The position numbers and the translations under genes were made by a program. This document shows, in pieces, positions 16,227 to 48,118 of a stretch of 64,000 bases of DNA (within the stretch, counting starts at the first letter, position 1; the number at the start of each line of letters is the position of its first letter). This DNA comes from an uncultured Ignavibacteria bacterium (GTDB lineage Bacteria > Bacteroidota > Ignavibacteria > Ch128b), in contig CALDZP010000046.1 of assembly GCA_937944105.1 (NCBI GenBank), positions 1 to 64,000 on the forward strand. Direction: 5' to 3'. The notes under the pieces were generated by a model. The model worked only from the letters and a program-made list of their open reading frames with translations. It made no database searches and had not been told where the DNA came from.

Positions 16227-17615
16227 TTATTTCTCAAGCAATTCAATTACAAGTACTCTTCTATTCTTCCAGTATTCTTTTCTAACTTTTGTAACTGGTC
16301 TTTCTTCACCAAACCATTTTGTCATAAATCTGTTCTTATCAATACCTTGACTTACTAAGTATTTATAAACTGTATTTGCTCTTCTCTCAGAGAGTTTCAT
16401 ATTATATGCAGCAGGTCCAATTGGACATGCATGACCTTCGATTGAGAACATTACATCTGGATTTTCTTTCATAAATTTAACAGCTTCATCAAGTTTAGCT
16501 TTTTCTTCTTTTCTTAAATCATATCTGTCAAAACCAAAGTACACTGTTACCTGATAAGCTTCTTCTTTTACTGGACAACCGTCTTTATCTACTTTCACAC
16601 CAGCAGGTGTATCTGGGCATTTATCTAAGTAATCTGGTACTCCATCACCATCGCTATCAACTGGACAACCATTAGCATCTACTTGAACACCAGCAGGAGT
16701 ATCTGGGCATTTATCTAAGTCATCTGGTACTCCATCACCATCGCTATCATCTGGACAACCATCTTTATCAACTTTTACACCAGTAGGAGTATTTGGACAT
16801 TTATCTAAGTAATCTGGAACACCGTCACCATCACTATCAACGGGACAACCATCTTTATCAACCTGGACACCTTTCGGAGTATTCGGGCATTTATCTAAGT
16901 AATCAGGTACCCCATCCCCGTCACTATCAATTGGACAACCAAATTTATCAACTTTTACACCTGATGGTGTATTTGGACATTGATCGTATTTATCGGGAAC
17001 TCCATCACCATCTGAATCAACACCTTTAACAAAAGTAAATCCTAATCCTAAAGTAACCGTTGCATAACCATCATTTGATTTTCCACTCTTTATACCTTCA
17101 AAATAATCCTGACCACCAAAGTTATAAGCACCTGCGAGATTTAAACTAAACATATCTGATAATAAATATTTTAAACCAGCTTCACCATAAAATCCCAAAG
17201 CTTTATTATCATTTGCAATTTTCTTTGAATGATAAAAAGTATAATTCAATCCAGCACTTAAATATGGTAACCAATCTGAGCTCCCATAAGAATAAAGTGC
17301 TCCAAATTTACCATCGTAAACAAAATTTCTTTGAGCATCGCCAGTCATATTCTTAAACTGGAGAAAATTATATCCCACAAGAAATCTCAAACCAAATGCA
17401 TGCCTATTATCTGTTGAAAAGAAATATTCTAATCCTCCCCTAATAGTTGGTAAATTCACCCGGTTACCTGGATCTACTACAGAAATATTTATACCACCAT
17501 CAAGTGTAGCACCGAAATATCCACTTAAGGGATTATATTTAACTTGTTGTGCTTTTAAATTCAGACTAAAGCACAATACTACCACAAAAAAAGTAAGTAT
17601 TATTTTCTTAAACAT
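16227..17615 (-). CDS. OmpA-like protein with barrel and five TSP3 repeats
   Basis: A 462-residue outer-membrane protein. Residues 1-23 are a signal peptide and about 25-198 form a predicted beta-barrel. Residues 200-349 are five 30-residue thrombospondin type 3 repeats (DSDGDGVPD, then CPNTP and GCP), which usually bind calcium and form a stiff rod. Residues 352-462 are an OmpA domain (EGHACPIG, LSERRANTVYKYL, NRRV) that grips peptidoglycan. It should tie the outer membrane to the cell wall. GGAGG lies upstream of the ATG. It is third in a run with two related genes. Confidence 0.92.
   Translation of the reverse strand: MFKKIILTFFVVVLCFSLNLKAQQVKYNPLSGYFGATLDGGINISVVDPGNRVNLPTIRGGLEYFFSTDNRHAFGLRFLVGYNFLQFKNMTGDAQRNFVYDGKFGALYSYGSSDWLPYLSAGLNYTFYHSKKIANDNKALGFYGEAGLKYLLSDMFSLNLAGAYNFGGQDYFEGIKSGKSNDGYATVTLGLGFTFVKGVDSDGDGVPDKYDQCPNTPSGVKVDKFGCPIDSDGDGVPDYLDKCPNTPKGVQVDKDGCPVDSDGDGVPDYLDKCPNTPTGVKVDKDGCPDDSDGDGVPDDLDKCPDTPAGVQVDANGCPVDSDGDGVPDYLDKCPDTPAGVKVDKDGCPVKEEAYQVTVYFGFDRYDLRKEEKAKLDEAVKFMKENPDVMFSIEGHACPIGPAAYNMKLSERRANTVYKYLVSQGIDKNRFMTKWFGEERPVTKVRKEYWKNRRVLVIELLEK
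16569..17018 (-). repeat. Five in-frame 90 bp tandem repeats (TSP3 coding)
   Basis: The DNA encoding residues 200-349 of the OmpA-like protein is five near-identical 90 bp units. The first unit (highest coordinates) is the most diverged and the later ones are very similar. This pattern fits tandem duplication or gene conversion. It is a coding repeat and not a CRISPR array. Confidence 0.9.
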
Positions 17616-17651
17616 TTTAATCCTCCAATTTTTGTTTTTAATATAATAAAT

Positions 17652-19121
17652 TTATTTAATTTTTGTAATAACAACTCTTCGATTTTTTTGACGTCCTTCT
17701 TCTGTTTTGTTGTCAGCTATTGGATAATCTTCACCCATTCCTTGAGCTATTAAAGATTTTTCTGGAATACCTAAACTAATTAAATATTTCTTCACTGCTT
17801 CAGCTCTTTCTTGTGAAAGTTTTTTATTAAACTCTGATGAACCCTGACTATCAGTATGACCTTCTATTCTCCAAAATGAATTCGGGTATTTTTTAATTTT
17901 TTCTGCCAGTTGTTTAAGTTCTTTTTTTGCATTCTCTGTCAAAGTCGATTTACCAACTTCAAATGTTGTCATACTCTGAAGAATGAAAGTTTGTTCCTCC
18001 TGTTGAATATTAATTAATTCTTCAGGACACCCTTCGGAATTAACTTTAACTCCAGTTGGTGTATCAGGACATTTATCAAATGAATCCGGGATCCCATCAC
18101 CATCTGAGTCTTTTGGACAACCTTTATCATTCACTAAAATATTTCTTGGAGTATCTGGACATTCATCGAATGGATCAAGAACACCATCACCATCAGAATC
18201 CAATGGACAACCTTTATCATCAACAGGGAAACCAGTGTGAGTACCAGGACATCTATCAAGATAATCCGGGACACCATCACCGTCAGAATCTATTGGACAT
18301 CCATCTTTATTAACAACAACACCTGAAGGAGTATCAGGACATTTATCAAATTCGTCTTCTACTCCATCCAAATCCGAATCCTTCTTAACACGAACAGGAC
18401 AACCAAATTCATCAACTTTTATATTAGGAGGCGTATTTGGACATAAGTCAAATCTATCAGGGACTCCATCTTTATCAAAATCCCTCAAACCTCCAAAATA
18501 CACTGAAAAACCTGCAAGACCAGTAACAAATAAATCTTTTTTTGAACTTATCCTTCCATCAATTTCATCTGTATTTGGATAGTTAACTATACCGGAAAGA
18601 TTTAGAGTTAATCCATCAGCAAGTTTTATTTTTAATCCACCCTCACTAAAAAATCCTAATTGAATATTCCTTTTGGTATTGAAAGCTTCATTTCTTAATT
18701 GATCCAAAACTTTTATCCAGTAAGTTGTATAACCACCGAAAGTAACATAAGGAATTAATGTATTGTAATTTAGCAAAAATGATAGTCCCACACCTGCATC
18801 AAGGAAATAAGTCAAAAAATTCATAGAATTTCTTTGAGGTGAGCCGATAGATAAAGGATTTGTATTTTCCCCTGAAAGAGATCCATATCCCGAAAAAACT
18901 TTTAATCCGAATAATGATTTTGCTTCTGATTCAAAAAGATATTCAAATTCACCACGACTATAGAATTCAGTATTAGATTTAGAAAAATTTCCTTTGTAAT
19001 AATTTAAACCACCACTAACTCCTAACCAGAATGAATTACTCAAAAAATTTGGATATTCTCTTATTTGTGAAAAAATAAATAGAGGTAAAAAAAAGTAAAA
19101 AATTAAAAATGGTTTTTTCAT
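17652..19121 (-). CDS. Second OmpA-like protein with TSP3 repeats
   Basis: A 489-residue paralogue of the next gene. It has a signal peptide ([19 protein letters not shown]), a barrel region to about residue 210, TSP3 repeats at about 214-366 (less regular, with one five-residue insertion RVKKD), and a canonical OmpA domain (about 375-489) with [25 protein letters not shown] and QKNRRV. The peptidoglycan-binding Asp and Arg positions are intact. The gap to the next gene is 30 bases and to the previous gene four, so the three form an operon. Confidence 0.92.
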
Positions 19122-35759: not shown

Positions 35760-37373
35760 CTAATTACAAACTCGTTTAAAGACTCTTAAAAAATTTTCGC
35801 CATAAATTTTTCTTATATCAGATATGGAATAACCTCTACGCAGAAGTGCTTCAGTTAGATTTGGAAACTTCGTCACATCCTCAAGTCCAACAACAACTCT
35901 TTCGATGCCATCAAAATCTGATCCAAGCGCTATATAATCAACACCAACAAGATTTTTAATATAATCTATGTGTGCAATTACATTATTAATTGTAGCTGTG
36001 GAAGAACTTGTCAAATATGGTGGATAAAAAATTACACCAATTACACCACCTTTCTGAGCTATTTTAATTATTTGTTGATCAGTAAGATTCCGGTAATGAT
36101 TCCTTAATGCTTTAACACCCGAATGTGTTGCAATTATTGGGTTAATAGTTGTTTCCAAAATATCATCTATTGTTTTTGAACCAACATGTGAAACATCTAT
36201 TATCATTCCGAGAGAATCCATATGTCTGATTACCTCTCGACCAAAATCAGATAAACCTTTTGTTGCTGCTTGTGGGTCTTGCGCTGAAGTTGCCCAGGTC
36301 GTAGAATTATTCCATGTAATTGTCATATATCTTACGCCAAGTTTATAAAGTGAATCTAGTTTATAAATATCGTTTTCAATTGCATGACCACCTTCAACAC
36401 AAAGTACCGCAGCAAACTTACCAATCTTCACAAGGCTATCGATTTCTCTCGAATTTCTTGCCTGAACAAATAGATTTTGATATTTATTTAATTGAATTTT
36501 AAATGAATCAATCATTCTTATTATTTGCTGAAAAGGATTGTTTGGATACAGGGTTGGACTAACCCATAAAGCCATAAATTGAACATCAACGCCACCTTTA
36601 TAAAACCTTGGAAGATCAGAATGATTAATTGAGTTCCATTTCCCAAGATCATATCCATTTACTACCTTTTCAAGAACATCGTTATGTAAGTCTATTAAAA
36701 TTGAATTTTGATGAACTGTTTCAAGAGAGAAAATAACATGATGATTTTGAGAATTATCAATTTCTAATGTATCGGGAACATAAAGAAATCTTTCAGCTAC
36801 GAGATAATAATTACTTGTAAAAATTTTTTTCAAATCAGAAAAAGAACTAACATTTTGATTTTGGATTTTTAATCCTCCTCCCTTTTGATAGCCAATTTGA
36901 ATAATTTTCTTAACTATAGTTTGAGAATTAGTTCTAAAAACTAAAAAATAAACTCCACCACTTTTATCCCCTTCATATTGAATTCTATGTCGACCTGCAG
37001 ATAAAATAAAATTTTTTCGCTCCATTAATTTTCCAAGAGCATCATATACTTCAACTACTAAGGTTTCCGATCCTGGAAGATATATATCAATATTTACAGA
37101 AGGATTAAATGGATTTGGGAAGGGATTTGAAACAAAAAAATCTTTAAAAATCGGTGAATCGTCTTGAGTCGCTAAAATGAAAGAAAAGAATCCAGTATTA
37201 TTTGCGAAAAATGTATCCCTCTGATTTAAATTGTTTTTGTTAATAAGAATAACATATGCTGAGTCAAGTCCTGCCCCAGTATATTTATCTGTGATGAAGC
37301 CACTTATTGAAATTGACTGTGAATAAATATTTAGAATTGTTGAAATGAGTAATAAAAGAACTATTTTTATCAT
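35760..37373 (-). CDS. M19 dipeptidase with an N-terminal T9SS-like sorting domain
   Basis: A 537-residue exported metallopeptidase. A signal peptide (MIKIVLLLLISTIL) leads to a carboxypeptidase-regulatory-like module, then at about residues 80-161 a complete T9SS type A-like domain (SNPFPNPFNPSVNI, VEVYDALGKLM, GGVYFLVF). The renal-dipeptidase domain follows, with DLHND, EGGHAIE, HSGVKALRNHYRN and GSDFDG supplying the metal ligands. Such sorting domains normally sit at the very C-terminus, so this order is odd. The start at 37373 is chosen over one at 37394 because the signal peptide begins there. Confidence 0.85.
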   Translation of the reverse strand: MIKIVLLLLISTILNIYSQSISISGFITDKYTGAGLDSAYVILINKNNLNQRDTFFANNTGFFSFILATQDDSPIFKDFFVSNPFPNPFNPSVNIDIYLPGSETLVVEVYDALGKLMERKNFILSAGRHRIQYEGDKSGGVYFLVFRTNSQTIVKKIIQIGYQKGGGLKIQNQNVSSFSDLKKIFTSNYYLVAERFLYVPDTLEIDNSQNHHVIFSLETVHQNSILIDLHNDVLEKVVNGYDLGKWNSINHSDLPRFYKGGVDVQFMALWVSPTLYPNNPFQQIIRMIDSFKIQLNKYQNLFVQARNSREIDSLVKIGKFAAVLCVEGGHAIENDIYKLDSLYKLGVRYMTITWNNSTTWATSAQDPQAATKGLSDFGREVIRHMDSLGMIIDVSHVGSKTIDDILETTINPIIATHSGVKALRNHYRNLTDQQIIKIAQKGGVIGVIFYPPYLTSSSTATINNVIAHIDYIKNLVGVDYIALGSDFDGIERVVVGLEDVTKFPNLTEALLRRGYSISDIRKIYGENFLRVFKRVCN

Positions 37374-37831
37374 AACATTTTCAAGATAAACCATTTCAAA
37401 AAATTAAAAAAGTTTAAACCAATTTTTATTTTTCTTTCTTGGTTTAGGATTTTTTTCATTATTAAAATAGCAAAAAGTGATTTTAAATTTCGATTTCTCT
37501 ACTAAGATTTGAGTAAATGGTTTTTTAAACAAACGAATAATGAAAATTATATTCATGTTGAGGTATTAAAATTATGTTCAACTTTAGTTGAATTTTTTGA
37601 GGTGGATTTCCTTACATTTAATTCTAAGAGTGATTATCAAAATAAAGGCGAAATAAAAGGAATGATATTCTCTAAGAATTTAAGATTTGAAATATTTCAC
37701 ATCAATCGAGTGTAAAAGCACAAGCGAATAATTACCTAACGAAGAATAAAAACCAAATTAGATATTATTAATTCCTTTTATAAATTCATGAGACTGAAAA
37801 GTAGGAGAGTAGCTTAAATCACTAATAAAAA
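37374..37831. other. Gene-free spacer upstream of the dipeptidase
   Basis: About 450 bases lie between the dipeptidase start and the TonB stop. A 68-codon TTG-initiated frame on the plus strand has no ribosome site or recognisable motif and is not called. No hairpin terminator after tonB was seen. Confidence 0.35.
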
Positions 37832-38512
37832 CTATTCAAGCCTATAAGGAATTGTAATTATCACCGTTTGTTCGAATTGAATTTGATTAGGTCTCAATGG
37901 TTCGAATCGCCAGGTTTTTAATGCTTGTATAGCTGCATCTTCTAATTGGGTATCGGCTTTAATTAAAGGAATTGGGGAGACAACAGAGCCATCTGGTAAA
38001 ATGGTGAATTTAATTTTAATATCAATTTCTTTTTGAACTCCAGGAGGAAATTTTGGTTTTTCCCATCTTAAAATTTTGCGTGTTCCTCTTCCACCCCAGT
38101 CAAAACTATATCCACTTGAACCAAATGGTTGATCACCTGTTTCACTCTTAGAAACATTTTTTGAAATACTTTCTGATTGCTTTGCTCTTTCAATTCTCTT
38201 TTTGCTTTCCTCAACCTTATTATTTTTCTTAACTACTTCATCAAATTCTTGTTTAACTATTGGAGCTTCAACCTTTTGCTTAAGATCTTCAGTTGTCTCT
38301 GTTGGTATTTCTTCCAAAGCAGTATTTGATTTTTCATTTAATGGAGATTCACCCGCTTTGCCTGAACCTGGACTGCCAAAATCAACTGTTACATATTCTG
38401 GTTCTTCGATTGTTGTTCCTAATGAAATGAATGAGAAGAATACTAAAATCAAAAAATGAAGAACTAAAGAAATTAAGTAAGTATTTTTTCTATTGGTCAG
38501 GAAACTAATCAT
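37832..38512 (-). CDS. TonB-family energy transducer
   Basis: A 226-residue protein with one N-terminal membrane segment (about 12-32), a charged, Glu/Lys-rich linker (it lacks the usual long proline run), and a C-terminal TonB domain (about 135-226) with IKFTILPDGSV and AAIQALKTWRFEP. It should carry force from ExbB-ExbD to an outer-membrane partner. It overlaps exbD by four bases and is the last gene of the operon. Confidence 0.9.
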   Translation of the reverse strand: MISFLTNRKNTYLISLVLHFLILVFFSFISLGTTIEEPEYVTVDFGSPGSGKAGESPLNEKSNTALEEIPTETTEDLKQKVEAPIVKQEFDEVVKKNNKVEESKKRIERAKQSESISKNVSKSETGDQPFGSSGYSFDWGGRGTRKILRWEKPKFPPGVQKEIDIKIKFTILPDGSVVSPIPLIKADTQLEDAAIQALKTWRFEPLRPNQIQFEQTVIITIPYRLE

Positions 38513-38913
38513 ATTGATTCTTTTTCTGTCGCAATCGTAAACTTATTTATACCAGAACTTTTAGCGATATCGATGACTCTAATTAAAATTTCAATAGGGA
38601 CTTCTTTATCAGCTCTAATGATAAGATTTTTTTCGGTTTGTTGTAAGGGTGATTTAATGATTTTATCTGCAAGTTCACCAAGACTTATTTTTTCAGTACC
38701 AAAATAAATTTCATTGGTTTTTGTAATTGTAACGACAAATTGATTCTCGTTAACAATTTCTGAAGTTTCAGATTTAGGTAACTTTACCTGAACACCAGTA
38801 GTGATCACAAATTGAGAGGTTAGCAAGAAAAATATCAATAAAAGCATAACAATATCAGTTAACGAAGAATAATTAAATGCTGTTAATAATTTTGATTCAG
38901 AATCGAATTTCAT
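38509..38913 (-). CDS. exbD: ExbD/TolR-family proton-channel protein
   Basis: A 134-residue protein with one membrane segment near the N-terminus that contains the key aspartate (D20 in SLTDIVMLLLIFFLL), followed by a periplasmic domain ending in IDIAKSSGINKFTIATEK. ExbD dimers sit within the ExbB pentamer and turn proton flow into motion. It overlaps exbB and tonB by four bases on each side. Confidence 0.92.
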   Translation of the reverse strand: MKFDSESKLLTAFNYSSLTDIVMLLLIFFLLTSQFVITTGVQVKLPKSETSEIVNENQFVVTITKTNEIYFGTEKISLGELADKIIKSPLQQTEKNLIIRADKEVPIEILIRVIDIAKSSGINKFTIATEKESI

Positions 38914-39539
38914 CTTTTTCTACCATGCTCCTGTTCATAAATTACATCAATAAAATCAGTAGAAGAAATCTCCATTTCAGAGACAAGCTTATTGATTTTA
39001 GTAACAAAATAATTGTAAAAAAGATAAGCTATAATACCAACTGAAAGTCCAAAAGCCGTTGTCAACAAAGCTTCCCATATTCCACCTGCAAGATCAGTTG
39101 GAGAAGCATTACCACCAAGCGATTCAATTTTCATAAAAGCTGAAATCATTCCAGTGACAGTTCCAAGAAAACCTAATAATGGAGCCACTCCTGAAATAGT
39201 AGCAAGTACTGAAAGTCCTCTTTCAAGTTTATAAATTTCTTGTCGTCCAGCACTCTCTATAGATTCTTTAATTCTATCCATACCAAAATAATATTTCGAC
39301 AATCCTTTTCTCACAATATTTGCAATAGGCGAATTAAATTCAGAACAATAATTAATTGCTTCAACTATATCTCCTTTTTTCATATGTTCACGAATTTGCA
39401 TCATAAATCGGGGAACATTAACCGATGCTTGACGCAGAACAAAATATCTTTCGATAACTATTCCAATGGTAATAATAGAACATAAAAGAATGGGCCACAT
39501 AAGTAGCCCACCCTTTAAGAAACCAGTCAATAAATCCAT
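38910..39539 (-). CDS. exbB: MotA/TolQ/ExbB-family proton-channel protein
   Basis: A 209-residue inner-membrane protein with three membrane segments. ILCSIITIGIVIERYFVL is the first, and GLSVLATISGVAPLLGFLGTVTGMISAF is the conserved pore region. It forms the pentameric motor with ExbD. It starts seven bases after the HU-SPOR gene and overlaps exbD by four bases, which places the motor in the same operon as the HU genes. Confidence 0.93.
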   Translation of the reverse strand: MDLLTGFLKGGLLMWPILLCSIITIGIVIERYFVLRQASVNVPRFMMQIREHMKKGDIVEAINYCSEFNSPIANIVRKGLSKYYFGMDRIKESIESAGRQEIYKLERGLSVLATISGVAPLLGFLGTVTGMISAFMKIESLGGNASPTDLAGGIWEALLTTAFGLSVGIIAYLFYNYFVTKINKLVSEMEISSTDFIDVIYEQEHGRKR

Positions 39540-39546
39540 ACTTTTT

Positions 39547-40941
39547 TTATCTCCTATCTACAAAAATATCTTCTTTTTTTAGCATAAGTCTTAATGAATG
39601 ATAATCTTTTGAAGCAGCATCTTCATCGATGTAAAATCCAACTTTAACTCTATAAACTTTACCATAATTCGGGACATCAGCACTTTCTACAAAAGCACGA
39701 TATCCTTTGTTCCTTAACTCTTTAGCAAATGCATCGGCAAATCTTTTTTCGGTATAAGAATTTACTTGAATGAAATAATCTCCATAAGCAGTTGATAAAG
39801 GAGTTTTCTTGATCACTTCTCGTCGAGTAACAGTCCTGCGAGTTAATGGTTTTTTCTTTTCAGTTATAGGAGCTTGTGAAATTTTTTCTTCACCCTTTAA
39901 AGGTTCGGGAGTTTTTTTAACTAATTCCTTTTTAGGCTGAGTTGGTTCTTCGACTAACAACGAAGTTTTCTCTTTAATTGATGTATCTTTTGGGATTGTA
40001 GCATATTCTTCGGGGGCAATAATAATTTCTTTTTTACCAGATTTAATTGGTTGTTTTTCAATTACTACTGGTGGAGTTGTCTCTGTTTTAGTAGTTACAA
40101 CAGGTTCTTTTTTTGGTTCAGTTACATCTGTACTTAAAGCCCAGTAAACACCAATACCGATGATACCAATCAAAAGAATAATTAAAGTTACCCAGAGAGC
40201 ATTCGAACTTTCTTTTTCTTTATAAGCTGGAGCATCAGATGTTGTAGCTGATGGAAAAGATTGTTGATATCCTCCTGATGAAGATGGAGTAGTTAAATCT
40301 TCACCATAAGTAAATTTTGGTTTTTCTTGATTGAGGTTCATTTCTGGCATTTTTGTAACCTCCTCTTTTTCTTTTTTAGTCTCCTGAAGCTCAGGAATTT
40401 TTGTCTCTTTTTCTTCCAGTTGTGGTTCAGGAACAGATTCTGTTTCTTTTAGAGCCTCAAACAACTCAGAAGAGAGACTTACATCTTCAGTAGAGATTGA
40501 TTCAATTGATTTTTTAGATTCATTTTCTTCAAGTTTAGAAATCTCCTCGAGAAATTTTTCTACTTTTGAAAATTCTTCTTCTTTTTCTGATGGCATAATT
40601 GATACTCTCTTTTCAATTTCTCTTTCTTCTGCTTCTTTAATTACTTTAGGTTTTTCATCTTTGAATCTAATATTAATGTCCTCTGCAAGTTTTGAAGATG
40701 GTGAAAAGGATAATGTAAATTTTTCAGGTATTTCAATTTCCCGATTTAAGATTGCACTAAATTTTTTCGTTGCTTTTGTAATTCTCGGTGCGAAAGTTCC
40801 AAAATTAGCAATATTTACTTTCTCCCCATCACGAAGTGCAGTAACTGTCAAATCAATAAATTTTTGAAAAACTTTTTCAACCTCACTTAATTCAGCCCCG
40901 ATTTTAGAAGCAACCCTTTCAAAAAATTCTTTTCGTTCCAT
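39547..40941 (-). CDS. HU-domain protein with membrane segment and SPOR domain
   Basis: A 464-residue fusion. Residues 1-93 form an HU-like DNA-binding domain (REFFERVASKIG-like start, VNIANFGTFAPR, SFSPSSKLAEDIN). Residues 100-245 are acidic and low complexity. Residues 248-269 are a membrane segment. A Pro/Lys-rich periplasmic linker leads to a SPOR domain at about 385-462 (GDYFIQVNSYTEKRFADAFAKELRNKGY), which binds denuded glycan at division sites. It could tie the chromosome to the septal wall. It shares one base with the upstream HU gene (TAATG). Confidence 0.88.
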   Translation of the reverse strand: MERKEFFERVASKIGAELSEVEKVFQKFIDLTVTALRDGEKVNIANFGTFAPRITKATKKFSAILNREIEIPEKFTLSFSPSSKLAEDINIRFKDEKPKVIKEAEEREIEKRVSIMPSEKEEEFSKVEKFLEEISKLEENESKKSIESISTEDVSLSSELFEALKETESVPEPQLEEKETKIPELQETKKEKEEVTKMPEMNLNQEKPKFTYGEDLTTPSSSGGYQQSFPSATTSDAPAYKEKESSNALWVTLIILLIGIIGIGVYWALSTDVTEPKKEPVVTTKTETTPPVVIEKQPIKSGKKEIIIAPEEYATIPKDTSIKEKTSLLVEEPTQPKKELVKKTPEPLKGEEKISQAPITEKKKPLTRRTVTRREVIKKTPLSTAYGDYFIQVNSYTEKRFADAFAKELRNKGYRAFVESADVPNYGKVYRVKVGFYIDEDAASKDYHSLRLMLKKEDIFVDRR

Positions 40942-41210
40942 TATTCAGTCTTAAATATATTTTTTGATGGTTTAAAGACTAATACTTCTTTAGGAGGAAT
41001 TAAAATTAAGTCCCCCGTTTTAGGATTAACGCCTTTTCTTTCTTTCCTGACTTTTTTCTCAAACTTGCCAAAATTGGTAAATGTTATAGCACCTTCCTCT
41101 TTGACGACCTCTACAATTGAATCTAAAATTGCATCAAGAATTTCATTTACTTTTTTCTGAGTAAGATTTGTTTCCTTGGCAATATTTGAAATAAGTTCAC
41201 TTTTATTCAT
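40941..41210 (-). CDS. HU-family DNA-binding protein
   Basis: An 89-residue HU/IHF-type nucleoid protein. ITFTNFGKFEKKVRKERKG and NPKTGDLILIPPKEVLVFKPS are the beta-arm and C-terminal motifs. It is a full-length stand-alone HU directly upstream of the HU-SPOR fusion. It starts immediately after the stop codon of the barrel gene (TAAATG) and its stop overlaps the next ATG by one base. Confidence 0.93.
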   Translation of the reverse strand: MNKSELISNIAKETNLTQKKVNEILDAILDSIVEVVKEEGAITFTNFGKFEKKVRKERKGVNPKTGDLILIPPKEVLVFKPSKNIFKTE

Positions 41211-42818
41211 TTAAAACCTTGATTTTAAGTTAAGCAAAATTTCAATGGGTCTCTTATTATAATTTAACCATTGATAATTTTTTTTGTTCAATAAATTTTT
41301 AATTTCTACACCTGCGTTTAACCATCTGTTAATTTCGTAATCTCCCTCTAAATCAAAATTTATTAAAGGTGCTACCTCATTCTTAAGACTTTTATCTCCA
41401 TAACTAACTGAATTATACAAAAAACTTAATTTCAAAGAAAGGGGGTTGATAAATTTATAACCATATGTAAATTTTAATTGTAATTTAGGAACATGTGGTT
41501 CCTGGCGAGTTGTTTCTGTTAATTTTGAATTGATGTATTTGAAATTAAATAACAGATTACCAAAATTCTTAAAATCAAGGAAAAGAAATGTATTTATTTC
41601 AATGGCATTAGTTTCTAATTTTTGCAAATTGAAATACCCACTATCTTTTGGACTCGTTCCTGCAACAAAAACATTTTTCCCCATTACACGATAATTCGAT
41701 AATTCAAATTTAATATTGCTTCTCCTATCAAAATAAATGATTGTTCCGAAACCGAAACGATTCTTATATCTTTCTATTGAATAATTAAATGACGAGGTAT
41801 CTAAATAAGGATTTTCATTCCATAAGTTGATTGGCGTTTTATTGAGCAATTTATTTTCATAAAATAAATTTAAAGTCCAATAATCGCTTAAACCAAAACC
41901 CAATCGAACACTTGGAGCTAAAAATTGTTTACCATCTTCTTTTTCTGACTGATAATCCATTCGAGTAATAATGTTCATAACTTTAAATAATTTTCTAAAA
42001 TAGAGCTCTCCATAGGCTGAAAGAATTAGAGTATTTTTTGTAAAATCTTTTGATACTTTGTAAATCATCGGTTGAGCTGAAGCTGTTAACTCAAAATGTT
42101 CAAAAGAAGATTTAAGAACACCAAAAGCACTTAATTCAGCAAAAGAAAAATCCCATTTGCTCAATTTTTGATAATCAAAATTCCCACCAAATGTCAGATT
42201 AAATTCTCTATAAAAAAGATTTTCAAAACTTCCTTTGAGATTAAAGTTTGTAATTGTTTTAAAAGTATCTGCATCAAAAGATTTAAAGTTTGAGTATTTA
42301 AAATAATCAAATTGGCCTGTAATATTTAATCGAGCAGGTGGTTGATCTTCCTTTTTTATTATTAATGTGTTATTAGCATAAATATTTGATTTAAAAAATC
42401 TGGAATTCTTTTCATAATCTCGGCTATTGATTAAATTTCCACCTATGTTAAAATTATATTGTTCAACTTTTAATGCATAATAAAAGTCTAACTCGGGTAA
42501 AGTATAAATTCCTAATGCAGTTTTAATCCTTCCATTATACTTAGTTGATGAATCTATAATTGAAGGCTGCTGTTTTGCTGGGTCAGATAGTCCTTCAAGT
42601 TTTAATTCTTGAACTTTAATTTTAGGTAAAATGAATTCTTTTGAAAGTGGAGTGATTAATTCGATAGTATTTTTATTCTGTTGAGGCATCTCAACGGTTG
42701 CCTGACCTGTAATAACAAAATCAGGGAGTTCTATCTCGGGAATTTTTGATCTAACTGTATCTGTTTGAGCAAATAACTCAATAAAACTTATTAAACAGAA
42801 AAAAATGATCTTTTTCAT
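41211..42818 (-). CDS. Predicted outer-membrane barrel protein of the TonB operon
   Basis: A 535-residue protein with a signal peptide (MKKIIFFCLISFIELFAQ). It has a short N-terminal segment with PEIELPDFVITGQATVEMPQ, then a long alternating pattern rich in Y, F, N and K ending in EILLNLKSRF, as in outer-membrane barrels. No TonB-receptor plug domain is evident, although the leading VITGQA segment resembles the start of one. It overlaps the TPR gene by four bases. Its position suggests it is the outer-membrane client or partner of the TonB system. Confidence 0.7.
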   Translation of the reverse strand: MKKIIFFCLISFIELFAQTDTVRSKIPEIELPDFVITGQATVEMPQQNKNTIELITPLSKEFILPKIKVQELKLEGLSDPAKQQPSIIDSSTKYNGRIKTALGIYTLPELDFYYALKVEQYNFNIGGNLINSRDYEKNSRFFKSNIYANNTLIIKKEDQPPARLNITGQFDYFKYSNFKSFDADTFKTITNFNLKGSFENLFYREFNLTFGGNFDYQKLSKWDFSFAELSAFGVLKSSFEHFELTASAQPMIYKVSKDFTKNTLILSAYGELYFRKLFKVMNIITRMDYQSEKEDGKQFLAPSVRLGFGLSDYWTLNLFYENKLLNKTPINLWNENPYLDTSSFNYSIERYKNRFGFGTIIYFDRRSNIKFELSNYRVMGKNVFVAGTSPKDSGYFNLQKLETNAIEINTFLFLDFKNFGNLLFNFKYINSKLTETTRQEPHVPKLQLKFTYGYKFINPLSLKLSFLYNSVSYGDKSLKNEVAPLINFDLEGDYEINRWLNAGVEIKNLLNKKNYQWLNYNKRPIEILLNLKSRF

Positions 42819-45784
42819 TTTAATTTTTTTAACTTATTTTTTGCTTGCAAACCAAGTTCACCTTTGGGATCAATTTTAGTTACCTCTGTATAAAATTCTT
42901 TCGCTTTTCTTTTGTCTTTCAATTGCTCATAAATTTCTGCAACTCTAAAAAATCCTTTAACAAGCCAATCTGTATGACCAGCAAAAGCATAACGAAGTTT
43001 AAGGAATTCAGCGATTGCATCCTGATATTTTTTCTTGTTATACAAAATTTCGCCAATAAGATATTGACTTTCAGCACCAAATTCATCATTTCTTAATTCA
43101 ACAACTTTTCTGAAATAAGTCAATGCAGAATCAGGATTAGCATTCATTTCGATTTTTCCAATTTCGAATAAAGCTCGTGAATAAAACCCTGTCCCTTGAT
43201 ATTTTGTAGTTACGTCATTAAAATATTTTCTTGCTCTTGTAATATCCCCTTTTTCGAAATATGCTTTGCCAAGCCAGTAGTTTGCCTCTGCAATTAAATT
43301 TGAATTTGGAAAATTTTTAATAAGAATATCGAATTGTTCTATTGCTTCATCAAATTTATTTAGAGTTCGATAAATATTACCTGATTCAAGAATTGCATCA
43401 TCTACGAGTTCATCGTTTGAATAATTTTTAATTATTAATGAGAGATTAAAAAGTGCATCATCGTATGCTTTTAATTGAAGAAATGATTTTGCTATAGAGA
43501 AATATCCAAGTGGAACAAGCGAACTATTCGGGAAAAAAGAAATAAATTCACGATAGGCTGCAATGGCTTCTTGAAATCTCCTTTGACTTAAATACAAATC
43601 TCCTTTTTTTATTAAAAGTTTATCGAGATGACGATTACCAGGATTGGAATAAACGAATTCAGTTATTGCCTGAGCAGCTTGATCAATTTTACCCTGAGAA
43701 ACATAAGCATATTGTATTCCATTCATTGCATCAAGTACAAAATCTGATTGAGGATAATTTTTCAAAACCTGATTATAATTTGAAATTGCTAAATCGTATT
43801 TGCCAAGATTAAAGTAAGCATCTCCAATTGAATAGTAAGCAAGAGGAATAATTGGTGAATTTGGAAAAGTTTGTATTAGTTTTTGATATTCTTCGATGCT
43901 TAATTCATATTTTCCCTGTTTAAATCTTATCCATCCTATTAAATATTGAACCTCATCGGCATATCTTGAGGCAGGATATTTGGATAAAAATCTTTTCAAT
44001 TCTTCAATTGATGCTTCAAGATTTCCAGCACGAAAGAGTGCCTGAGCAAGTTGATAAGAAACATAATCGCTACCTCGAGCATCTGGATCGGAAAAATAAT
44101 CACGATATAATTGACTTGCCTTTGAAAAATTCTTCTGTGCGTAATATGAATCCGCTAATCTTAATTTTATCTCGTTAAAATATCTGGAATAAGTAAAATC
44201 TTCTAAAAATTTTTGAGCAAGTTGAATTACTCTTGAATAGTTTTTGAGATTAAAATTACTATAAATTAAACCGTAATAAGAAAGTTCTTTGAGCAAATCG
44301 TCACGAGTAATTTTTATCGCATTTTCATATTCACGAATTGCCTCTTTGAATTTATTCTGAGCATAATAAGATTCACCTAGATAAAATCTAACTTTATCTT
44401 CTTCTCGAATTTTCTTTAATGATAAAATTTTATTGAGTGCAAAATTAGTCGCATCATAATTATTTAAATAAAAATTCGAGATAGCCAAACCAAGTAATGC
44501 ATCGTTGTAATCCTCATCATCCTCACTTAACAAACTTACTGCAAGTTCATAATTTGTTTTAGCTATTCTAAAATTTTTTCTCTCCAGATAGATAGTCCCA
44601 AGGATCAAAGCGGCACTCGATCTACTTTTTTCATCCAATGTGTCTTCAACGACTTCAATTAAATATCTTTCTGCATCGGAATATTTTTTCAACTCATAAT
44701 TAATCAATCCAAGTTGATACTTTGCCTTTGTTGTGTATTCATTTGAAGGGAAGTTATTAATATATTCTTTAAATTCTTCAATTGCCCGCTTATTATTTTC
44801 TAAATTACGGCTAATAAAACCAAGCCAGTAAAGAGAGCGTTCGGCAATTGAATCAGTATCAAGAGAAAGTTCTTTAAATACTTTATGAGCCTGTTCAAAT
44901 TTATTTTGTTGATAAAAACTCCAGGCGAGTCCATATTTTGCAGGTCTCACCATAGGCGAGTTCGGGAAACGATTTACAACATTCTGAAACTCAACCTGAG
45001 CTTCATAAAATTTACCAATTTTATAATAACTATTCGCAAGTATGTAATAAGCTTCAGCCATACTTTGCTGGGAAAGAGTTCTGATTTTTGGATCACTCAG
45101 TCGAGTTATTGCTTTATTGTATGAACCATTAATGTAATGGGCATAAGAAACTCTTACTAACGCATGGGGTGTTAGATTCGAAGTAGGAAAATCCATTATC
45201 AATTTTTCATAATAATATTCAGCTTTATCATAAAATTTCAATTTCTCATACAGAAAAGCCAATGAAAATAAGGTGTGATCATATCTTGTATTAGTTTCAT
45301 TAAAATTGAGAGCTTTCAAAAAATTTTTTTCAGCTTTATCAAATTGATTTTGAGCTGAGTAAACTTCACCTAACCAATAATAAGCAAGACCAACATATTT
45401 ACTTTCACTTTCATTTTCGATTAACTTCAATAAAAATTTTTCTGAATTACTATATACACCAAGTGAGTAGTAAATTTCACCGAGTCGAAGTAAGGCAAGA
45501 TCATAATTTCTATCGTAAGGGAATCGTATTATATAATTTTCAAAATCAAGACTTGCTTCAATAAATTCATTCTGACGATATTTTATATCCCCTAATAAGT
45601 AATAAATCTGAGCAAGTGATTCATAACTTAGATCTTTATCTTCTTTAATTTCATTGAGTATCTTATAAGCTTCTGAATAAAAACCATCCTCATAAAGTTT
45701 TAAACCACGATCAAATTTATCTACAATAGATTGAGCAAAAGTTACTCTAATAATTAATAATGCTATAAAAATTTTCCTTTTCAT
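42815..45784 (-). CDS. Large TPR-repeat protein
   Basis: A 989-residue periplasmic protein with a signal peptide and about 25 tetratricopeptide-like repeats filling the rest (repeated A-x-Y-x-L-G, YDKAIxxY and FPNSxxxxxA patterns). YbgF/BamD-like spacing (FPNSPxxPxAYYxIGxAY) is frequent, so it should act as a scaffold for envelope proteins. It has no catalytic motif. It overlaps the DUF92-type gene and the barrel gene by four bases each, so it is firmly part of the operon. Confidence 0.85.
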   Translation of the reverse strand: MKRKIFIALLIIRVTFAQSIVDKFDRGLKLYEDGFYSEAYKILNEIKEDKDLSYESLAQIYYLLGDIKYRQNEFIEASLDFENYIIRFPYDRNYDLALLRLGEIYYSLGVYSNSEKFLLKLIENESESKYVGLAYYWLGEVYSAQNQFDKAEKNFLKALNFNETNTRYDHTLFSLAFLYEKLKFYDKAEYYYEKLIMDFPTSNLTPHALVRVSYAHYINGSYNKAITRLSDPKIRTLSQQSMAEAYYILANSYYKIGKFYEAQVEFQNVVNRFPNSPMVRPAKYGLAWSFYQQNKFEQAHKVFKELSLDTDSIAERSLYWLGFISRNLENNKRAIEEFKEYINNFPSNEYTTKAKYQLGLINYELKKYSDAERYLIEVVEDTLDEKSRSSAALILGTIYLERKNFRIAKTNYELAVSLLSEDDEDYNDALLGLAISNFYLNNYDATNFALNKILSLKKIREEDKVRFYLGESYYAQNKFKEAIREYENAIKITRDDLLKELSYYGLIYSNFNLKNYSRVIQLAQKFLEDFTYSRYFNEIKLRLADSYYAQKNFSKASQLYRDYFSDPDARGSDYVSYQLAQALFRAGNLEASIEELKRFLSKYPASRYADEVQYLIGWIRFKQGKYELSIEEYQKLIQTFPNSPIIPLAYYSIGDAYFNLGKYDLAISNYNQVLKNYPQSDFVLDAMNGIQYAYVSQGKIDQAAQAITEFVYSNPGNRHLDKLLIKKGDLYLSQRRFQEAIAAYREFISFFPNSSLVPLGYFSIAKSFLQLKAYDDALFNLSLIIKNYSNDELVDDAILESGNIYRTLNKFDEAIEQFDILIKNFPNSNLIAEANYWLGKAYFEKGDITRARKYFNDVTTKYQGTGFYSRALFEIGKIEMNANPDSALTYFRKVVELRNDEFGAESQYLIGEILYNKKKYQDAIAEFLKLRYAFAGHTDWLVKGFFRVAEIYEQLKDKRKAKEFYTEVTKIDPKGELGLQAKNKLKKLK

Positions 45785-47259
45785 ACAGTCAAAAATATAA
45801 AATAAAGTAAACTTATGAAAAATACGGAAGAAATATTTACCAAATCGTTATCAATAAATTTTATCCCCTTGAAATATTGAGTAGAAGATTGACAATGAAT
45901 TTGTTTTTCGGTCAGTTTATTACAAACAGGACATTTATAAACTACCTGAACGGTTGATCCAAGTAAACTATCAAGTAAATTTCCGAAAAGCGAAAAAATC
46001 AGAATAGTAATGAGAATAGTAGCCGATAAATTTTCGAAATATGAACCACTTATCAAAATTACAATCGAACCTAAAATTCCACCAAACGTTCCAATTAAAG
46101 AAATTCCACCTGATATCCCTGCTTCGACTTTTCTAAACGAAGTTATCAGGTAAACATTCTTTGCCAGTAAAACTCCAAATTCAGTTGACCATGTATCAGC
46201 AGTAGAAATTGCAACAGCCAAAAGATAAACAAGATACCAATTAACTTTTTCTGGTAATAAGATACTTAAAACACAAATTAAAAGCGGAACCCCACCATTT
46301 GCCAGAACTTGTTTATAATCTCTTCTGCTTCCTTTTTCAAATATTTGATGAACTTCTTTTCTGGATAGTCTTTCTGCAATTTTTGAAAGTAAAGAAGATA
46401 AAATAAAGAAAGTTAAAATAGGGACAGTCCATTTCCATCCACCTATTCCAAAAATGAACAAAGCTAAAATAAAAGTTACAGCAGAACCACTAAGATCTAG
46501 AAATTTTAATCGGTATGAAATTATTGAAATTAGAATTGCTAACACCGATGCAAGTAAGAAGTTATTAATATCAATTCCAGAATAAAAGAAAATCATTCCC
46601 GAAGTAGAGAGAATAACTGGTAGACTTAAATTATCTGTGCCTTTCGTACTGATTGATTCCGTGATACCACCAATGAACGAAAAAACTAAAGCAACAAAAG
46701 TAAAACTAAGATTGTCATAATCAATAAAATTAAATTTATCCCACATAGTAAATTTTACAATCCACATCAAGATGAATGAGGAGATAAAAAAAGCAATTGA
46801 ACCATTAAAGGTCTTGGGCTCTTTAGTAAATTTAGTGTAAACTTTAGATTTTGCATTCATTCCGAATAGAGCAGCTAAAGCATCACAAATTGAAAATATT
46901 AAAAAAGCAAAACTGATTAAATATTTATTAACATTCCAGAAAAACAAAACACTTATCAAAAATGACAGAGGATAATAAAAAATTCCAAGGTTTTCCGAAT
47001 GATTATGATCTATTTGCTTCAGCAATTGTTTTTTAATAAGAATAAAATTAGTCAGCGTAAAACCCACACCAATAAATAAAACAAGATAAAAACTGCTTAT
47101 GATAAAGGGGACATAAAAAACAATAAGACCTGTAGTGATATGAAGTAATTTCCTTGCAAGAGATCTGGAGAGAAGATTCTTTCTTGACAAGAATTCAAAT
47201 AAAAAAAGAAAAACAAGAGTTAAGAAAGTTAAGAATAAAAGTAGCTTGAACTCATTCAT
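45781..47259 (-). CDS. Fusion of a VTE5-like and a VTE6-like (DUF92) lipid kinase
   Basis: A 492-residue membrane protein. The first half (about 1-230) resembles the CDP-alcohol/dolichol-phytol kinase (VTE5) family: SRSLARKLLHITTGL, ICDALAALFGMN and FIGGITESISTKG. The second half (about 240-492) is a DUF92 (VTE6) domain with GSRRDYKQVLANGGVP and ADTWSTEFG. In plants the two act in turn to phosphorylate phytol. Here they sit in one chain. A zinc-like CPVCNKL-HC pair lies near the end. It leads the TPR-barrel-HU-ExbBD-TonB operon. Confidence 0.8.
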   Translation of the reverse strand: MNEFKLLLFLTFLTLVFLFLFEFLSRKNLLSRSLARKLLHITTGLIVFYVPFIISSFYLVLFIGVGFTLTNFILIKKQLLKQIDHNHSENLGIFYYPLSFLISVLFFWNVNKYLISFAFLIFSICDALAALFGMNAKSKVYTKFTKEPKTFNGSIAFFISSFILMWIVKFTMWDKFNFIDYDNLSFTFVALVFSFIGGITESISTKGTDNLSLPVILSTSGMIFFYSGIDINNFLLASVLAILISIISYRLKFLDLSGSAVTFILALFIFGIGGWKWTVPILTFFILSSLLSKIAERLSRKEVHQIFEKGSRRDYKQVLANGGVPLLICVLSILLPEKVNWYLVYLLAVAISTADTWSTEFGVLLAKNVYLITSFRKVEAGISGGISLIGTFGGILGSIVILISGSYFENLSATILITILIFSLFGNLLDSLLGSTVQVVYKCPVCNKLTEKQIHCQSSTQYFKGIKFIDNDLVNISSVFFISLLYFIFLTV

Positions 47260-47313: not shown

Positions 47314-47340
47314 AAATAAAAAACCGCCTCGAAGAGGCGG
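47314..47340 (-). terminator. Intrinsic terminator of the TPR lipoprotein-like gene
   Basis: CCGCCTC pairs with GAGGCGG around a GAA triloop, followed on the minus strand by a T-rich run. It lies about 20 bases after the stop codon at 47360. Confidence 0.88.
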
Positions 47341-47359: not shown

Positions 47360-48118
47360 TTATTTGGTGAGGTTTTTCAATTCATAATCACAGACTGCTT
47401 TATAGGTAGGATCTTTCTTCCCTTCTTCAAAAGCTAATTTTGCTTCATTCATTCTACCTAAATTTTTCAATGCAAGTCCCTTGTAATAAAAAATTCCGCC
47501 TTTCGAAACCTTTTGACGATACTTCAAAGCATTATCTGCGGCAGCAAGCGCATCTTCATACTTTCCATTCTCAACATATGCTCGGGCAAGTGCCAGATAA
47601 GCTGCGTCATTTTTGGAATCATTCTGAATAGCTTTCTTAAGGTTATCTATTGCTTTATCATATTCGAAATTTTTTAATTGTTGATCTGCAAGTTTTAAGT
47701 ATGAAAGTGAAATATTTTTTTCAACCTGATTTTTTAATTGAGCATTCTTTGTAAGTTCAAGGGTTTTTAAGAAGTTATTTATTGATTGCTCATAATTTCC
47801 TCGTGTGAACTCAAGTGTACCAAGTGCATTATATGCTAAATCGAAATCTGATTTTAATTTTAATGCCTCATTTAAATCATTATACGCTTGATCAAGTTGA
47901 TTCATTTTCCGATGAGCTATACCCTTCTGATAAAAGATTCTGTAATCTTTTTGAATTTTTAATGCCTGTTCATATAATTGAATAGCTGCGGAGTAATTGC
48001 CTTCTTTCATTTTCTGATTACCTTCGTTATAAAATTTTGCAGCATCGGGATTCATATCCTGGGCAATTAAAAGATGGATTGAAAACAGTAATACGAAGAT
48101 TATTTTCAATAACTTCAT
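47360..48118 (-). CDS. Periplasmic TPR protein
   Basis: A 252-residue protein with a signal peptide (MKLLKIIFVLLFSIHLLIAQ) and about five to six tetratricopeptide repeats (YNEGNQKMKEGNYSAAIQLY, then AYNALGTLEFTRGNYEQSI and similar). It should be a small periplasmic scaffold. It follows the tRNA-Leu gene by about 60 bases and ends in a terminator. Confidence 0.82.
   Translation of the reverse strand: MKLLKIIFVLLFSIHLLIAQDMNPDAAKFYNEGNQKMKEGNYSAAIQLYEQALKIQKDYRIFYQKGIAHRKMNQLDQAYNDLNEALKLKSDFDLAYNALGTLEFTRGNYEQSINNFLKTLELTKNAQLKNQVEKNISLSYLKLADQQLKNFEYDKAIDNLKKAIQNDSKNDAAYLALARAYVENGKYEDALAAADNALKYRQKVSKGGIFYYKGLALKNLGRMNEAKLAFEEGKKDPTYKAVCDYELKNLTK

Follow-up and report, generated by a model that had tools for sequence, protein, structure and literature searches.

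What would bring HU proteins, a wall-binding SPOR protein, a TonB motor and an outer-membrane barrel together in one operon? The locus lies in a window of 64,000 nucleotides, the whole stretch of DNA analysed, from an uncultured Ignavibacteria bacterium (genome size 2.74 Mb). The original prediction was that its eight genes could form a Tol-Pal-like machine coupling chromosome position or division to constriction of the outer membrane. The eight open reading frames, all on the minus strand, run from 47259 to 37832 with joins of −4 to +7 bp; the tight packing and the order of the genes stand as predicted, and the families are confirmed by Pfam or NCBIfam for every gene except the barrel. The features are as follows.

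47324–47340, minus strand: intrinsic terminator-like stem-loop with T-run, upstream bound of the operon (CCGCCTCTTCGAGGCGG TTTTTTATTT)
45781–47259, minus strand: DUF92 protein, 492 aa, with an N-terminal multi-transmembrane half (PF01940, 8.7e-61, residues 240–482)
42815–45784, minus strand: periplasmic TPR scaffold, 989 aa, with signal peptide and many repeats (TPR families to 1.8e-79)
41211–42818, minus strand: outer-membrane barrel, 535 aa, predicted to be of TonB-dependent-receptor type without plug (profile, AlphaFold2, Foldseek)
42705–42731, minus strand: TonB-box-like strand ELPDFVITG, barrel residues 30–38 (homologue alignment)
41217–42533, minus strand: predicted 22-strand barrel domain, residues 96–534 (AlphaFold2 model)
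40941–41210, minus strand: small HU protein, 89 aa, with canonical arm NPKTG (PF00216, 6.7e-29; arm alignment)
39547–40941, minus strand: HU-TM-SPOR protein, 464 aa (PF00216, residues 1–90; PF05036, residues 386–451)
40672–40941, minus strand: HU domain of HU-SPOR, arm diverged (PF00216 and arm alignment)
40135–40200, minus strand: single transmembrane segment of HU-SPOR, residues 248–269 (hydrophobic stretch)
39589–39786, minus strand: SPOR domain of HU-SPOR (PF05036, 1.3e-11 for the whole protein)
38910–39539, minus strand: ExbB, 209 aa (PF01618, 7.2e-34)
38509–38913, minus strand: ExbD, 134 aa (PF02472, 3.3e-28)
37832–38512, minus strand: TonB, 226 aa, with its C-terminal domain at 37838–38020 (PF03544, 3.3e-7)

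Overlaps of 4 bp join DUF92 to TPR, TPR to barrel, ExbB to ExbD and ExbD to TonB; barrel and HU abut (0 bp), HU overlaps HU-SPOR by 1 bp and a gap of 7 bp separates HU-SPOR from ExbB. The terminator-like stem-loop divides the operon from the upstream gene of TPR252, a 252-aa TPR protein (47360–48118) that is kept beside the operon, across the terminator, in relatives of the family and in some other Ignavibacteria. At 35760–37394 lies an M19 dipeptidase whose N-terminal half contains a T9SS C-terminal sorting domain.

Conservation and boundaries of the gene set

All eight genes are present in identical order in four genomes of the same family (G001–G004), and in a fifth (G005) the contig ends after HU-SPOR. 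Through Bacteroidota the order TPR, barrel, HU, HU-TM-SPOR, ExbB, ExbD, TonB is met again, with genes lost or fused in places, so that the arrangement proposed for this locus is kept across the phylum. The barrel itself was found by a first profile in 322 of 390 good phylum genomes and by a broader one in 381 of 393, mostly as strong and full-length matches, the weak or absent ones clustering in few families. Unbiased linkage figures come from the 40 loci selected by the barrel only: TPR adjoins it in 37 (it is missing in L081, L082 and L085), and within 7 kb downstream SPOR is present in 35, TonB in 28 and ExbB in 21. A search with the operon ExbB, whose GIWEA-type motif was used for finding orthologues, gave 80 named loci with the order seen in Ignavibacteria, Balneolaceae, Rhodothermales and Cytophagales, ExbB linkage being built into these loci (L100–L179) by their selection.

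The loci titled KSB1 (L136, L152) and the unassigned bin522 (L122) contain TPR, barrel, ExbB, ExbD and TonB; in all three the interval from barrel to ExbB is free of HU and SPOR genes. A short Calditrichota contig contains barrel, ExbB, ExbD and TonB. Since the KSB1 loci carry them without HU/SPOR, the TPR protein, the barrel and the motor look like an older core, to which HU and SPOR would have been added in Bacteroidota. Eight Omnitrophota loci (L138, L145, L147, L151, L153, L154, L162, L171) combine a TPR gene of about 800–860 aa with ExbB-ExbD and give no barrel match; such loci, with a TPR gene of about 830 aa beside ExbBD, were rejected as members for lack of the barrel and are possibly a related motor-TPR unit.

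The flanks vary by lineage, with DUF92 in some Ignavibacteria and different genes in Cytophagales. In Balneolaceae (L127–L142, L081) the operon is preceded by FtsK, LolA and a lysylphosphatidylglycerol-synthase-TM (flippase-like) gene. The first gene of our locus had been read as a lipid kinase fusion belonging to the unit: it is indeed the first gene of the transcript, but DUF92 sits beside the core only in some lineages, adjoining TPR in several Ignavibacteria families only, and as a lineage-specific neighbour it was dropped as a working part. Its N-terminal half has no Pfam match; it carries the motifs RK..H..G, D..A...G and DN...P, which we take to resemble those of CTP-dependent polyprenol/phytol kinases, and the protein may be a fusion of a phytol kinase and a prenyl-phosphate kinase. 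The TPR protein exceeds the cut-offs for YbgF and BamD, although its assignment as YbgF/CpoB, BamD or PorW was set aside as repeat cross-matching.

The barrel and its motor

The barrel matches no Pfam or NCBIfam family. A profile of 26 barrels searched against the PDB gave, at E ≤ 0.01, 51 matches, all 51 of them TonB-dependent receptors (best 3.5e-12), and the 50 best listed Foldseek matches are likewise all TonB-dependent receptors, with E about 1e-15 to 1e-13 and TM-score about 0.6. The AlphaFold2 model, built from 46 sequences (pLDDT 82, pTM 0.77), has 22 strands as counted from the listed elements, while residues from about 17 to 90 are mostly of low confidence and unstructured and form no plug. 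PF07715 is not matched by the barrel, and its gene is absent among the 20 plug matches of the genome. The KSB1-like barrel of L122 scores 26.1 bits, just under the Pfam receptor cut-off of 27. As predicted from profile and model, the protein is a TonB-dependent-receptor barrel that has no plug and keeps a TonB-box-like strand. The Syntrophaceae locus L168 was matched by the barrel profile, but its sequence is that of a genuine receptor of the plug type, and it was left out.

The strand ELPDFVITG starts straight after the signal peptide, and its equivalents in other lineages read LPEFVITG, DPQDIEIRS, DAEIVIRK or LKEYTILG. Ile36 is identical in 46 of 46 aligned barrels, the sole invariant column, and KSB1 barrels as well as a genuine TonB-dependent receptor have a box-like strand at the matching position. 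When box and adjacent TonB gene were scored in the 40 class loci, 29 had both, four the box only, two TonB only and five neither (Fisher p = 0.003, phylogeny being ignored); two of the four box-only loci are cut off by the end of their contig, and in the two TonB-only loci there are box-like variants outside the pattern.

As in a TonB-ExbB-ExbD system, the motor consists of proteins of the ExbB, ExbD and TonB_C types with conserved motor residues. The transmembrane aspartate D20 of ExbD and the threonines of the conserved ExbB motifs are invariant among aligned members, and TonB carries the transmembrane histidine H19. The roles of these motor residues are well established, and a transmembrane histidine is a property of motor-coupled transducers. 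With its TonB-box-like strand and its predicted TonB-receptor fold, the barrel appears linked to the motor on better grounds than the original prediction had available, and a dedicated, proton-driven trans-envelope machine of TonB type is a well supported reading of the operon. Beyond the operon, the genome encodes a further TonB and three further ExbD proteins and gives the 20 plug-domain matches; ordinary nutrient receptors therefore have another TonB available, and given those 20 matches the operon TonB could serve additional clients. In L094 (G000:C7, near 162100) there is a separate ExbB/ExbD-type pair beside a protein that is presumably DUF4159-like.

The HU and SPOR proteins

From its domain types, HU-TM-SPOR is taken to be oriented with the N-terminus in the cytoplasm, followed by the membrane segment and the SPOR domain, an FtsN-like topology; its score against the FtsN equivalog TIGR02223, 31.4 bits, is far below the cut-off of 107.65. 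FtsN, DedD and DamX share this cytoplasmic N-terminus, single transmembrane segment and periplasmic SPOR domain, and differ in that here the cytoplasmic part is an HU domain. The small HU keeps the canonical DNA-binding arm in this family and has it shortened elsewhere, and the arm of the HU head in HU-SPOR has diverged here and is lost in many relatives. Nearly every Balneolaceae locus examined has an HU gene of about 69 aa between barrel and HU-SPOR, PF00216 being confirmed for three of them.

At L160 a single HU-HU-TM-SPOR protein matches the Pfam HU-CCDC81 families, and L088, L141 and L173 resemble this fusion. The fusion of both HU units in these relatives suggests that the small HU and the head of HU-SPOR form a pair. 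The model of the L160 protein is poor overall (pLDDT 64), with the two HU units and SPOR folding acceptably. The best fold match of the fused HU-HU protein is a chain of a eukaryotic doublet microtubule, and phmmer found no match for the fused pair in the PDB. HU-CCDC81/SPOR proteins of Bacteroidetes (PF18174, PF18175) were reportedly described by Burroughs et al. in 2017; they share with L160 the HU pair, the one transmembrane segment and the SPOR domain. The set described here differs from them in that each HU unit has a gene of its own, with PF00216 as the best match in both cases, and in that these genes stand in a motor-barrel operon, a context not found in the literature searched.

The composition of this anchor varies. 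L123 and L126 have HU and no SPOR, some Bacteroidota have SPOR without HU, and in the SPOR proteins of L083 (7998–8846) and L156 (9067–9924) a lysine-rich, histone-H1-like cytoplasmic tail takes the place of HU. In several Cytophagales the HU region is replaced by acidic tails. The cytoplasmic tails of the Cytophagales SPOR proteins encoded before ExbB in L140, L149, L161, L167, L175 and L178 are mostly acidic, and close to their N-termini these proteins have in common a short sequence, DFGLPxL or a variant of it, that may serve for docking. Coupling to the chromosome is possible and is a weaker claim than the other parts of the proposal, since the HU-SPOR arm is lost in many heads and HU or SPOR is missing in some lineages and in the outgroup core.

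Relation to Tol-Pal and alternative readings

In this genome neither a genuine TolB nor a genuine Pal turned up. TolB (TIGR02800) exceeded the cut-off in none of 31 genomes and did so in two control genomes, and TolB_N gave no match here or in 12 of 13 further relatives tested, the remaining one giving a match below cut-off; in the TolB_N search a Syntrophaceae genome matched strongly as expected, with the caveat that Bacteroides ihuae, one of the controls, matched as well. The genome has only two OmpA-domain proteins, encoded by neighbours at 16278–17966 and both OprF-like (barrel, thrombospondin type 3 repeats and OmpA), with no Pal lipoprotein and no PorE-type protein among them. ExbB and ExbD match PF01618 and PF02472, and they reach only 106 against the tolQ equivalog cut-off of 221 and 56.9 against the tolR cut-off of 127. 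A search of the literature gave no relevant work on HU-SPOR, plugless receptors or the operon apart from PMC12204202, whose text never uses the word SPOR. According to that work, no tol-pal loci can be identified in Bacteroidetes, and PorE, a CpoB-TolB-Pal-like fusion, is put forward as an outer-membrane tether (PMC12204202). PorE shares with our operon the status of a proposed answer to the missing tol-pal, and differs in being a single lipoprotein with an OmpA-like domain.

Tol-Pal (TolQ-TolR-TolA-TolB-Pal-CpoB) and the operon have in common a motor of the ExbB/TolQ and ExbD/TolR families, a transducer with a transmembrane histidine, a periplasmic TPR protein, a wall-binding element and an expected trans-envelope reach. 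In contrast to Tol-Pal, the operon lacks TolB and the Pal lipoprotein, its outer-membrane partner is an integral barrel, its transducer has a TonB_C domain, its TPR protein is of about 1000 aa, wall binding is by a SPOR domain on the inner membrane, and HU heads are added. With TonB-ExbB-ExbD and its receptors it shares the motor families, the TonB C-terminal domain, the TonB-box-like strand and the predicted 22-strand receptor barrel, whereas the plug is missing, the barrels are one phylum-wide family, usually beside their own motor and TPR partner, and no nutrient substrate gene lies near. By membership the operon is neither Tol-Pal (no TolB, no Pal) nor an ordinary TonB receptor system (no plug), though its parts are plainly of TonB type.

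Considering (i) the SPOR domain, (ii) the missing Tol-Pal and (iii) the near-universal spread, we prefer a role at division, for which a Tol-Pal-like function is plausible. In the model, TonB would grip the N-terminal strand of the barrel and pull, with the TPR protein as the periplasmic partner of the barrel; SPOR would place the motor on denuded septal peptidoglycan, and the HU heads would tether the complex to the nucleoid or to some other partner in the cytoplasm. To this dedicated proton-driven machine, most likely Tol-Pal-like and coupling the outer membrane to the wall and the inner membrane at division, we give an even chance of being right. The earlier proposal of such a machine is supported in part, by the conserved order and the failure to find tolB or pal and, as regards a motor-barrel link, by the TonB-box-like strand and the receptor fold; action at division, constriction of the outer membrane and coupling to the chromosome are its hypothetical parts, and it loses the lipid-kinase gene, which falls outside the unit. 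Against a Tol-Pal-like role count the lack of a Pal-like outer-membrane wall anchor in the gene set, the absence of HU or SPOR from several lineages and of both from the outgroup core, and the Flavobacteria-like loci L085 and L086, where the TPR-barrel pair or the barrel does not adjoin a motor.

The barrel could instead be a transport route and not a mechanical handle, and the complex would then serve TonB-driven transport, secretion or outer-membrane biogenesis, the barrel being a TPR-gated conduit and the SPOR/HU anchor only positioning it. A predicted 22-strand receptor-fold barrel without plug would suit such a conduit, an outgroup core of TPR, barrel and motor has neither wall nor DNA module, and Balneolaceae have LolA and the flippase-like gene upstream. 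Across the sampled lineages, however, the core is accompanied by no gene for a substrate, a secreted partner or a lipoprotein, its near-universal presence amid divergent flanks hints at a housekeeping function, and the SPOR protein has been added to it more often than any other part; we consider transport possible, though rather unlikely. Near-universal presence also argues against DNA uptake, which was dropped; a motor of the Myxococcus gliding type, a matter of resemblance only, was considered and dropped as well. That the grouping is merely transcriptional, with unrelated envelope genes on one promoter, would agree with the breaking up of the set in some lineages (L085, L086, L090) and with flanking genes that differ by lineage. 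Yet barrel homologues at 13–25% identity still sit in the same gene order, outgroup included, the fold and box of the barrel suit the adjacent motor, and HU and HU-SPOR fuse. The original prediction would have yielded to this explanation had the order been poorly conserved and a complete tol-pal set been present elsewhere; the order is conserved and this genome gave no genuine tolB or pal, and we regard a purely transcriptional grouping as strongly disfavoured and highly improbable.

A further alternative concerns the HU heads, which would bind protein and not DNA, as a CCDC81-like module that connects the envelope complex with some protein of the cytoplasm; chromosome coupling would then be wrong. 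A protein-binding role is kept open because L160 has its closest match by fold in a doublet-microtubule protein, and it agrees with the placing of relatives in the HU-CCDC81 families by Pfam, with the loss of the arm of the HU-SPOR head in many lineages and with the acidic tails that stand in for HU in several Cytophagales. Conversely, the arm of the small HU is canonical in this family, even if shortened elsewhere, and the lysine-rich H1-like tails of L083 and L156 point to a polyanion such as DNA. We judge protein binding to have somewhat less than an even chance, an estimate not exclusive of the others, as this alternative is compatible with either a division or a transport function of the machine.

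Returning to the preferred division role, its boldest form would have Tol-Pal replaced in Bacteroidota by a receptor that lost its plug and turned into a mechanical handle, pulled by a motor of its own and at a later stage bound, by way of a split HU-HU-TM-SPOR anchor, to the septal wall as well as the nucleoid. This form we hold to be improbable; if true, it would mean that constriction of the outer membrane is physically linked to chromosome position. The literature has yet to settle how the outer membrane is attached and constricted in Bacteroidota, where no Tol-Pal is recognisable (PMC12204202), and the operon, with its near-universal barrel, its own motor and its wall-binding anchor, is a concrete candidate for this work. 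A further suggestion drawn from it is that the barrel of a TonB-dependent receptor may lose its plug and yet stay as a motor-coupled part, which would widen the uses of TonB systems.
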